Assembly: GCF_004786015.1 (NCBI RefSeq) | Contig: NZ_CP032096.1 | Coordinates: forward strand, 1,364,001-1,428,000 | Length of the DNA stretch: 64,000 nt | Direction: 5' to 3' | Source: Hydrogenovibrio crunogenus | GTDB lineage: Bacteria > Pseudomonadota > Gammaproteobacteria > Thiomicrospirales > Thiomicrospiraceae | Shown: in pieces, positions 8,748-37,679 of the stretch | How positions within the stretch are numbered: the stretch's first letter is position 1 | Layout of the letters: each line of letters opens with the position of its first letter | Program-made: the position numbers and the translations under genes | The notes under the pieces: model-generated | The model's database searches: none | What the model was told of the DNA's origin: nothing | What the model saw: the letters and a program-made list of their open reading frames with translations, nothing else

Positions 8748-9509
8748 TTAAACTTCGGCAATCATTTTAACCAAGTCTAAATCCAAATAGGTTTTACCTT
8801 TGGCGTCACCCGATAATACCTCAAATGGTTCATCAGGCTCCCCCATATGATTCAATACCAATTCCGCTTGTGAAAAATCATCATTTTTGGTGTATTCATT
8901 AATTGTGACGATGGTACGGAGATTCGCTCCAGCAGACGACAAAATCCCGTTATAGGAATCTTCAAAAGCAATCGCTTGTTCTGGCTTCAAATTCATCTGC
9001 TCTAACGCCCAATCATAAATGTCCGGAGCTGGTTTTTTCGCAGGAACAATATCTCCCGCTGCAATCACTTCAAACCATGATTCTGAATCCGGTCCTAACG
9101 TATTCGTCAACAATGCAGTGACATTCTCAGGGGTAGTGGTTGTTACCACTGCCATACGCATACCGGTTTCCCGCGCTTCATTAATGAGACGTTCAACGCC
9201 TGTTCTTAAAGGAATTTTACCTTCACCCATTAACTGCGTATAAAACTTAGTTTTAGCCGCATGCAAGTCTTTGACAAACTGATCGTAATCATCCGGCTTT
9301 TGAAAAGCGGTATTAAATTTTTCTAAATAAAAACGAATACGTTCTTTACCACCTGTAACGGCTAATAATTCTCCATATAGACTTTCTGACCAATCCCAGT
9401 CCAGCCCAGCTTCTTCAAAAGCCATATTAAACGCAATTCGATGTCCATCCCTCTCTGTATCGGAAAGAGTCCCATCCACGTCAAACAACAAAGCTTGTAG
9501 TTCTGCCAT
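8748..9509 (-). CDS. cbbY: CbbY-type HAD hydrolase
   Basis: 253 residues from the ATG at 9509 (MAELQALLFDVDGTLSDTE); an upstream in-frame ATG at 9515 leaves too little space for the AAGGA ribosome-binding site. HAD motifs are complete: DVDGTLSDTE near the start (Asp10, Asp12), the VVTTTT motif II, the Lys in AKKPAPDIY, and EDSYNGI motif IV. The cap insert carries ERDGHRIAFNMAFEEAGL typical of CbbY. In Rhodobacter, CbbY is a xylulose-1,5-bisphosphatase that removes an inhibitor of Rubisco. No other Calvin-cycle gene is in the window, so an autotroph is suggested but not proven; some CbbY relatives act on other sugar phosphates. Confidence 0.85.
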   Translation of the reverse strand: MAELQALLFDVDGTLSDTERDGHRIAFNMAFEEAGLDWDWSESLYGELLAVTGGKERIRFYLEKFNTAFQKPDDYDQFVKDLHAAKTKFYTQLMGEGKIPLRTGVERLINEARETGMRMAVVTTTTPENVTALLTNTLGPDSESWFEVIAAGDIVPAKKPAPDIYDWALEQMNLKPEQAIAFEDSYNGILSSAGANLRTIVTINEYTKNDDFSQAELVLNHMGEPDEPFEVLSGDAKGKTYLDLDLVKMIAEV

Positions 9510-9693: not shown

Positions 9694-10122
9694 ATGGAAA
9701 GCTCAAGTGATTTTATAGAAGACTATCCTCAATACGAAATGAAGCCAGGTGAGGAGTACATGAGTCCTGAAATGCTGGAGCATTTCAAGAACAAGTTACT
9801 GGCATGGAAAAAGCAGTTGATTTGGGAAGCAACCAACACGGTTCAACACCTAAGATCAGACTCTTCAACGCCTGCTGACCCAAGTGACCGTGCATCTCAA
9901 GAGGAAGAATTTGCACTGGAATTGCGTACGAGAGATCGTGAAAGAAAGCTAATTTCTAAAATCGATAAATCGTTAAAAGACATTGAAGATGGTGATTACG
10001 GTTATTGCAAAATGAGCGGTGAAGAAATCGGCTTAGCACGTATGGAAGCCAGACCAACAGCAACTTTGACTGTTGAAATGAAAACCAAACAGGAAATGCG
10101 TGAAAAACAAGGGATTGCTTAA
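9694..10122 (+). CDS. dksA: DksA-family RNA polymerase-binding factor lacking most zinc cysteines
   Basis: 142 residues from the ATG at 9694, preceded by AAGGGAAGG. The coiled-coil tip motif (ADPSDRASQ, with Asp, Asp and Ala in the DxxDxA spacing) and the helix RDRERKLISKIDKSL are like E. coli DksA, which binds the RNA polymerase secondary channel and potentiates ppGpp. The C-terminal globular part keeps EEIGLARMEARPTA and ends KTKQEMREKQ, but the zinc site is broken: the four Cys of E. coli correspond here to Cys, Ser, Thr and Met, so only one is left. This resembles the zinc-independent DksA2 class. Inserted between two unrelated genes, it has its own promoter and terminator. Confidence 0.93.
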   Translation: MESSSDFIEDYPQYEMKPGEEYMSPEMLEHFKNKLLAWKKQLIWEATNTVQHLRSDSSTPADPSDRASQEEEFALELRTRDRERKLISKIDKSLKDIEDGDYGYCKMSGEEIGLARMEARPTATLTVEMKTKQEMREKQGIA

Positions 10123-10150: not shown

Positions 10151-10174
10151 GCCTGCTTTCATGGCAGGCTTTTT
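10151..10174 (+). terminator. Intrinsic terminator of dksA
   Basis: GCCTGC and GCAGGC form a 6-bp stem with loop TTTCATG, followed directly by a T-run (10170-10174). Confidence 0.85.
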
Positions 10175-10221: not shown

Positions 10222-11790
10222 GTGAATTTATCTTTTTTATTTGACGAACTTTCCTGCTCAAAGCTTTACCCCCATGCCGTGGAGGTCATTACCACGATCG
10301 AAACGCATATTTCCATTATCTTTTTAACCGGTGAATTTGCTTACAAACTCAAAAAGCCCGTCGATTTTGGTTTTCTGGATTTTACTGACCTAGCTGAGCG
10401 CAAGCGATTTTGCGAACTTGAAATCAGCCTCAATCGTCGAACAGCGCCTGACTTATATTTAGACGTCTGCCCTTTGTACCTGAAAAACGATCACTTACAA
10501 TTTACCCCGCATGGCGAACCGGTTGAATATGTGATTAAAATGACGCAATTTGATCCAAACCTTGTGCTCGGTCGCTATTTGAAAGACCACACATTAAACC
10601 ATTCACAAATAAAACAATTGACAGAAAGCATCGCACATTTTCATTTATGCGCTGAAAAAGTCTCTGATGACCTAGCATTCGGACATCCTGATAATGTCAT
10701 CCATCCTATGTTGGATAATTTTCCTTCCTTATTAAAAACATTTACTCATCCAGAGCAACAGTATCGACTACGACAATTGGCCGATTGGACACACTTCACG
10801 CAAAAAACGCTCTTTAGAGCGTTACTGGAGCGAAAAAAACAAGGTTATATTCGAGCCTGTCATGGTGATATGCATCTTGATAACATCACATTATTAAATG
10901 AAAAACCAACCTTGTTCGATGGCATTGAATTCAACGAACAATTTCGCTGGATTGATGTAATGAATGACTTGGCTTTTTTAATGATTGATTTGGAAAACCG
11001 TCATCAGCTTGGGCTAAAGCGACAATTGTTAAGTTATTACATTAATTTAACAGGTGACTACAATGGGTTGAATTTACTGACATTCTACCAAGTTTATCGC
11101 ACAATGGTTCGCGCTAAAATCACCGCGTTAAGATACCACCAGTTAGAGAAAAACAGCTTCGAAGCCGAACATTATTATGCATTGGCATTGACGTATCTGA
11201 AACAGGCCGAAGACACCGCTTATGCCCTACCGGAACCCAAACTGATTTTAATGCAAGGTGTATCTGGATCGGGTAAAAGTCATTACGCTCAGCAAATCCT
11301 ACAACACCTCGATGCGATTATTATCAGCTCAGACATTGAACGCAAACGATTGTTTGGGATTTCCCCACTGCAACGTGTTTCTAAGGCAAAACAAAAATCA
11401 TTGTATTCGCCGGAAATGAATCGTCGAACCTATCAAACACTGTTGGAGCTGGCGAAAACCACCTTAGCATCCGGTTACAGTGTCATTATCGACGCCACTT
11501 TTTTAAAGGAAGCTCATCGACGTCCTTTTCAAAAGCTGGCTCAAAAGCAGGATTACAACTTTTATGTGTTTTCCATCCCCCACCATGACCACGTATCGAT
11601 CATTGAAGACAGTCTGGCTCAACGAATACAGACAAATGACAACCCGTCTGATGCCGACATCAGCGTGATGCAACGTCAACTAATACAGTATGAAGCGCCA
11701 GATTATGGACCAGAACAAGTATTCACACTTACTCCAAAAGAAGAATTGTCCAATGAAGCCCTCAAGAACTGGTTAAACCTGCCGTTATAA
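10222..11790 (+). CDS. Aminoglycoside-phosphotransferase-like kinase fused to a P-loop AAA/kinase domain
   Basis: 522 residues, with a GTG start at 10222. The N-terminal half (about 1-320) is APH/protein-kinase-like, with the catalytic loop ACHGDMHLDNI near residues 212-222 and a LFDGIEFNE metal-binding segment. The C-terminal part (about 335-522) is an AAA/zeta-toxin-like P-loop domain with GVSGSGKS at residues 346-353 and a later IIDATFLKE segment. The fusion is a known conserved architecture in proteobacteria (COG0645 with COG2187) with no established substrate. The gene lies between the dksA terminator and a secreted protein gene. It could phosphorylate a small molecule or protein; nothing in the sequence settles which. 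Confidence 0.8.
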   Translation: MNLSFLFDELSCSKLYPHAVEVITTIETHISIIFLTGEFAYKLKKPVDFGFLDFTDLAERKRFCELEISLNRRTAPDLYLDVCPLYLKNDHLQFTPHGEPVEYVIKMTQFDPNLVLGRYLKDHTLNHSQIKQLTESIAHFHLCAEKVSDDLAFGHPDNVIHPMLDNFPSLLKTFTHPEQQYRLRQLADWTHFTQKTLFRALLERKKQGYIRACHGDMHLDNITLLNEKPTLFDGIEFNEQFRWIDVMNDLAFLMIDLENRHQLGLKRQLLSYYINLTGDYNGLNLLTFYQVYRTMVRAKITALRYHQLEKNSFEAEHYYALALTYLKQAEDTAYALPEPKLILMQGVSGSGKSHYAQQILQHLDAIIISSDIERKRLFGISPLQRVSKAKQKSLYSPEMNRRTYQTLLELAKTTLASGYSVIIDATFLKEAHRRPFQKLAQKQDYNFYVFSIPHHDHVSIIEDSLAQRIQTNDNPSDADISVMQRQLIQYEAPDYGPEQVFTLTPKEELSNEALKNWLNLPL

Positions 11791-37553: not shown

Positions 37554-37679
37554 ATGAAAATTTTATCATCATTAAAATCAGCAAAAACACGTCATAAAGA
37601 CTGTCAAGTTGTTAGACGTCGTGGGAAAGTTTATGTAATCAACAAAACAAACCCAAGATTTAAAGCTCGTCAACGTTAA
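37554..37679 (+). CDS. rpmJ: 50S ribosomal protein L36, zinc-free type
   Basis: A 41-residue ORF starting [16 protein letters not shown] and ending with the RFKARQR tail of L36. The usual zinc-ribbon form has three Cys and one His; here only one Cys remains (RHKDCQVV) and the VIC position reads VIN, so the ribbon cannot form. This matches the C-minus (YkgO-like) L36, a zinc-independent paralogue. It has its own promoter and terminator, away from the ribosomal-protein operons. Whether the genome also has a zinc-ribbon L36 is outside this window. Confidence 0.92.

Follow-up and report, generated by a model that had tools for sequence, protein, structure and literature searches.

DksA proteins that function without a four-cysteine (C4) zinc finger have been described in several bacteria. 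According to the available parts of four papers, R. sphaeroides, S. meliloti and Pseudomonas aeruginosa have working DksA homologues that lack the C4 finger (PMC9239242); P. aeruginosa DksA2 is a Zur-repressed second paralogue beside a four-Cys DksA1, which it is able to replace (PMC9213440); the C4 motif is absent from DksA paralogues that follow Zur sites (PMC2770081); and one row of a Zur-regulon table, which we read as P. aeruginosa from its PA tags, lists rpmE2 (L31), rpmJ (L36) and dksA together (PMC6103462). We compare these systems with the DksA encoded in a 64,000-nucleotide stretch of Hydrogenovibrio crunogenus DNA (bases 1364001-1428000 of the single-contig 2.45 Mb genome, hereafter the window).

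The window DksA is another case of this known functional kind, the zinc-finger-less DksA. It shares with P. aeruginosa DksA2 (4ijj) a DksA fold, presumably zinc-less in the window protein as well, and a retained first Cys; in DksA2, Thr replaces C117, Ala replaces C138 and Glu occupies positions 119 and 137 (E. coli numbering here and below). By contrast, the window DksA is a sole copy of a different lineage, in a genome where no Zur-type protein was found and no Zur box was seen. The proteins of R. sphaeroides (RSP2654) and S. meliloti (SMc00469), which have zinc-finger-less, DksA-like function in the available part of PMC9239242, belong to another class and are likened here by description. 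The fold, the coiled-coil tip and the ppGpp-site residues are common to the window DksA, E. coli DksA (1tjl) and the four-Cys DksA of Ca. Thioglobus/SUP05, whereas the ligands C117, C135 and C138 are replaced in the window protein. Chlamydia trachomatis DksA (6ptg) reads C-S-T-S at the site by eye, like the window DksA, but is distant from it (E 5.9e-14; Z 10.1 over 86 residues). The three proteins of the Pseudomonas Zur set (rpmE2, rpmJ and dksA in the available part of PMC6103462) are likewise zinc-free here; the H. crunogenus genome differs in having single copies, without zinc-type partners and with no Zur-type protein found. Our literature search, which covered mostly papers outside subscription, found no mention of a sole zinc-site-less DksA in Hydrogenovibrio or Thiomicrospira. 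What is apparently new is the probable loss of the site in place across the order, as part of a zinc-sparing set that seems to be constitutive and together with repeatable substitutions. We regard it as likely that this sole DksA is the vertically inherited DksA of the order Thiomicrospirales, whose zinc site would have been lost in place within a wider zinc-sparing set. The features concerned are listed in Table 1.

Table 1. Features of the dksA locus and of the other zinc-sparing genes. Positions are those of the window unless another frame is named.
Feature	Position	Strand	Basis or remark
HAD-IA hydrolase, divergent neighbour of dksA	8748..9509	-	TIGR01509 51.1 bits, cut-off 29.4
Sigma-70-like promoter TTGTCA-17-TATAAA	9620..9648	+	Congener alignment
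dksA	9694..10122	+	142 aa; matches to TIGR02420 and DksA_N; zinc site Cys-Ser-Thr-Met
Cys105 (E. coli C114), the one retained zinc ligand	10006..10008	+	TGC
Ser108, replacing C117	10015..10017	+	AGC
Thr126, replacing C135	10069..10071	+	ACT
Met129, replacing C138	10078..10080	+	ATG
Intrinsic terminator of dksA	10151..10174	+	Terminator scan
rpmJ (bL36), type B, one Cys	37554..37679	+	NF002021 92.3 bits, cut-off 70; outside the spc operon
bL31, Cys-free type B, sole L31 match of the genome	L315:1492-1743; genome C1:140805-141053	-	Over NCBIfam cut-off
Fur, sole FUR-family match of the genome	L316:1474-1887	-	174.5 bits, cut-off 146

The dksA reading frame opens with an ATG at 9694, directly preceded by GGGAAGG, and closes with a TAA stop at 10120-10122. 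Its product matches TIGR02420 over the full length of the profile (1-110 of 110; 148.6 bits, cut-off 115.5) and DksA_N with 105.7 bits; against NF008045 (PRK10778), also named DksA, it scores 159.2 bits, below the cut-off of 289. An initial annotation had proposed that three of the four zinc-binding Cys are replaced, that the coiled-coil tip motif is kept and that this is a main DksA, not a decaying copy, and our analysis bears out all three proposals. C105, S108, T126 and M129 stand at E. coli C114, C117, C135 and C138, so that the four-Cys site that marks a C4 zinc-finger DksA is absent. The acidic tip motif DxxDxA is present, with the equivalents of D74 and A76. The genome search that the annotation had called for found no four-Cys DksA: a profile search of the whole genome returned a single PF01258 and a single TIGR02420 match, and the Cys-Ser-Thr-Met protein is the only DksA. 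Its working parts are kept, and pN (0.07) is far below pS (0.80-0.84) in comparison with two congeners, which fits purifying selection. The annotation's strong promoter and terminator fared unequally. The terminator is in the scan list; the promoter is missing from the consensus scan list because the scan wants a -10 element ending in T, where A stands here. The complete promoter pair aligns in four of the seven usable congeners, and the other three retain the -10 part with a poor -35. Upstream of dksA, no site resembling the Zur-box consensus scored better than shuffles.

On its 5' side, dksA is paired with the divergent hydrolase gene, whose product is presumably CbbY-like. On its 3' side (10222-11790, + strand) lies a gene for a 522-aa protein with a kinase-like C-terminal part (a weak Pnkp match, below cut-off) and, by eye, a phosphotransferase-like N-terminal part; this gene follows dksA in 22 of the 23 named loci of the order.

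Loss of the zinc site is fixed throughout the order. A DksA over the family cut-off is present in 59 of 62 genomes (the other three are drafts of 140 to 520 contigs), and none of the 59 has the four-Cys site; the motif is C-S-T-M in 52 and C-T-T-A in seven. Because the site is missing from all 59 order assemblies with a readable DksA, a sequencing error that hides Cys codons is very unlikely; the same count, with pN far below pS, disposes of a decaying copy. Two genomes (G003 and G019) encode an extra short, low-scoring four-Cys relative besides the DksA of the order. Among the best 80 of at least 551 named loci, 23 belong to the order, the next is the metagenome-assembled genome (MAG) KhW_metabat.26 (hereafter KhW; C-T-T-A) and the remaining 56 are all four-Cys. 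We also surveyed the class with 143 genomes, one per family except for the window's own family (two). Nine without a DksA match and one with a weak match only (G099) were set aside. The 133 with a readable full-length DksA comprise 103 with four-Cys DksA only (judged on full-length matches among the matches listed), seven with both kinds and 23 with Cys-poor DksA only; a sole Cys-poor DksA is thus not rare. C114 is retained in every Cys-poor DksA listed from the order, the named loci and the class survey, distant ones included.

Other functional residues are equally stable: D71, D74, A76, R91, L95, K98, R129 and K139 are unvaried in all 103 Cys-poor alignment rows from the order and KhW, a count that includes duplicates. 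Of these, we take R91, L95, K98, R129 and K139 to be the ppGpp-site contacts of E. coli DksA. The genome encodes two RelA/SpoT proteins over cut-off, and the beta' subunit has the equivalents of the rim residues E677 and N680, which presumably contact DksA. These features suggest that the window DksA would bind RNA polymerase and co-regulate with ppGpp. An AlphaFold model (pLDDT 87.6) has the DksA fold, matching E. coli DksA (1tjl) with Z 17.3 and rmsd 1.7 over 139 residues and the zinc-free P. aeruginosa DksA2 (4ijj) with Z 14.6 and rmsd 1.9 over 128 residues; structure-search rows under Z 10 are mostly helical look-alikes. The window DksA is very likely zinc-independent, as judged from its sequence.

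Three positions differ between four-Cys and Cys-poor proteins: (i) position 119 is V or I in 45 and E in three of 55 four-Cys rows, and E or D in 15/15 rows of the order and KhW and 26/27 other Cys-poor rows; (ii) position 137 is D in 50 and E in four of the 55 four-Cys rows, and E in 14/15 order/KhW rows and 21/27 other Cys-poor rows; and (iii) position 138 is A or M in 15/15 order/KhW rows and 22/27 other Cys-poor rows. We interpret these changes as compensating for zinc loss.

The DksA is accompanied by three further proteins without the usual zinc ligands. The rpmJ gene of the window is the only bL36 gene over cut-off in the genome; none was found at the spc operon, where 98 bases separate the presumed secY and rpsM reading frames. 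In relatives, L36 was found in nine of 13 stretches of 20 kb, and all nine are of the window's kind (one Cys, or two in a single locus, L412). L31 falls in the type B score range (108 bits or more) in 60 of the 62 order genomes; 13 of these proteins were read letter by letter and have no Cys, and the others were placed by score. The two exceptions are a fragment at a contig end (G074) and a genome without a match (G070). In the Fur protein, the stretch HDHLVCVKTG has only the first Cys of the CxxC motif, and the C-terminal Cys pair is absent. Of the 61 order genomes with a match, 30 loci were read, and the CxxC is missing in all 30.

No Zur-type protein was found in the H. crunogenus genome, where the single FUR-family match scores as Fur. 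A second FUR-family match occurs in 20 of the 62 order genomes. Seven of these second proteins were read, and all keep both Cys pairs and are Zur-like; for five of the seven that were scanned, the best NCBIfam family is Zur, below cut-off. Absence of Zur is therefore not order-wide. Nor is zinc-site loss general, since the Cys clusters of beta' are retained (by eye) and the LigA of the window has four Cys. For S14, only a 101-aa reading frame was seen at the expected place, which says little about zinc use because the E. coli form of S14 has no Cys either. We infer that the zinc-sparing set (DksA, L31, L36 and Fur) is made constitutively, and saving zinc would be the selective reason for it.

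An alternative is neutral drift, with a dispensable site lost by chance and the co-occurrence of type B L31 and L36 a phylogenetic coincidence. Zinc-free DksA is functional in the available parts of PMC9213440 and PMC9239242, and the 23 of 133 sampled genomes with Cys-poor DksA only make such loss look common. However, the recurrent, directional changes at positions 119 and 137, the invariance of C114 and the association of L31 type with DksA type all speak against drift. Type B is the sole L31 in nine of 21 genomes with Cys-poor DksA only, against four of 106 others (Fisher p = 8.0e-6; p = 6.0e-4 if the four related genomes of the window's order, KhW and G108 are entered as a single case, kinship being otherwise uncorrected); the L31 of the remaining 12 of the 21 scores as zinc-type. 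The test leaves out two Cys-poor-only and four other genomes without an L31 match, and counts a genome with both L31 types (G199) as not type-B-only. For this comparison, 30 of the 137 genomes with an L31 match were typed by reading and the other 107 by score, including a few contig-end fragments (e.g. G130). Proteins read at 70 bits or more lack the CxxC pairs (zero to two Cys) and those below 70 bits have four Cys; L338/G045 was typed by score. A SUP05-like genome (G169) combines a four-Cys DksA with an L31 in the zinc-type score range. On balance, we consider drift unlikely, though it is the strongest of the alternatives.

A second alternative is adaptation to redox or sulphur chemistry, in which sulphide, persulphides and oxidation would make a zinc site of four thiolates (C4) disadvantageous and the retained Cys may be a thiol switch. 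Life with sulphide can be rejected as a sufficient cause, since relatives that we take to be sulphur oxidisers (Thioglobus, Thiothrix, Thiolinea and Thiomargarita-like bacteria) have a four-Cys DksA. Furthermore, L31 and L36 are also zinc-free, and we know of no redox-sensor role for either. The retention of C114 in every listed Cys-poor row speaks for the redox explanation, as it is unexplained by zinc loss alone, and in the available part of PMC8262869 the Cys residues of DksA from Salmonella undergo oxidation and are acted on by DnaJ. Taken together, these points make redox adaptation an improbable main cause.

We then considered ancestry. In a tree with the four zinc columns removed (97 rows, 120 columns), the order is nested in a four-Cys clade (99/99, from a bootstrap that had not settled). 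With covarying columns dropped too (55 rows, 118 columns), the order joins SUP05 and KhW (98/92), again within the four-Cys clade, and the position of SUP05 beside the order is weak (91/51). In this second tree, G050, a Cys-poor row named as outgroup, grouped with four-Cys rows; this may reflect either a further independent loss or the weakness of a short alignment. An AU test rejects a clade that unites the order with Pseudomonas DksA2 and related proteins (p = 0.0096). These alignments of 118-120 columns are compatible with a split that keeps every Cys-poor row on the same side (p = 0.30), with a clade of the order and a second Cys-poor group (p = 0.25) and with a group of the order, KhW and G108 without SUP05 (p = 0.37), so that one loss and two are both compatible with the data.

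Gene order provides evidence that does not depend on the trees. The divergent HAD-dksA pair occurs in 21 of the 23 named order loci (of the other two, one starts too near dksA and one has no HAD match) and in KhW. The same pair is found at six four-Cys loci of the SUP05 group and at four-Cys loci of three other MAGs, as in-place loss predicts. In addition, the window DksA is 52% identical to E. coli DksA in a structural alignment, against 42% to a P. aeruginosa DksA2 fragment. The third alternative, that a zinc-free paralogue of the Pseudomonas type was gained or retained by the order while its four-Cys DksA disappeared, is very unlikely given the rejected DksA2 clade, the nested position in both trees, a HAD-dksA arrangement like that of four-Cys SUP05 dksA and these identities, despite a similar motif (C-T-C-A in P. 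aeruginosa DksA2), the same changes at 119 and 137 and the compatibility of a split with every Cys-poor row on the same side.

The initial annotation had called the protein DksA2-type. Descent with P. aeruginosa DksA2 is not borne out by the topology test, the nesting or the synteny, and the phylogeny it had suggested places the protein by ancestry in the ordinary zinc-binding clade, an outcome that the annotation had named as counting against its proposal; the loss of the site itself is real. Two further marks of DksA2 are missing: the genome has one DksA match, not a second copy beside a four-Cys DksA1, and Zur control is not apparent, the sole FUR-family protein being Fur. The most probable course is that the zinc site disappeared in place, as a loss parallel to that in DksA2.

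Under this preferred reading of in-place loss, the ancestor of the order (Hydrogenovibrio, Thiomicrorhabdus and Thiomicrospira) would have lost the structural zinc site of its DksA where the gene stood. The protein would fold without zinc, its former C4 knuckle stabilised by Ser/Thr, Met/Ala and newly gained acidic residues, and the loss would have gone along with a sole type B L31, a sole type B L36 and a Fur without Cys pairs. More tentatively, the order might represent a Zur-type zinc-starvation switch fixed in the 'on' position: zinc-type DksA, L31 and L36 would be gone, Fur would be without its Cys pairs, and Zur would be missing from the window's genome and perhaps from 42 of the 62. The changes of 119 to E/D, 137 to E and 138 to A/M with C114 kept might then be a repeatable zinc-free recipe, and C114 may have a non-zinc, possibly redox, role.

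The order is a natural experiment for asking what bacteria gain from a zinc-binding DksA: a free-living sulphur-oxidiser order very likely does without DksA zinc and has no back-up copy. Because the apparently parallel loss in this order and in DksA2 involves the same companion substitutions, the sites can be tested singly. Our results also suggest that ribosomal and regulatory proteins of the zinc-sparing kind, commonly regarded as emergency paralogues, can form a permanent set.
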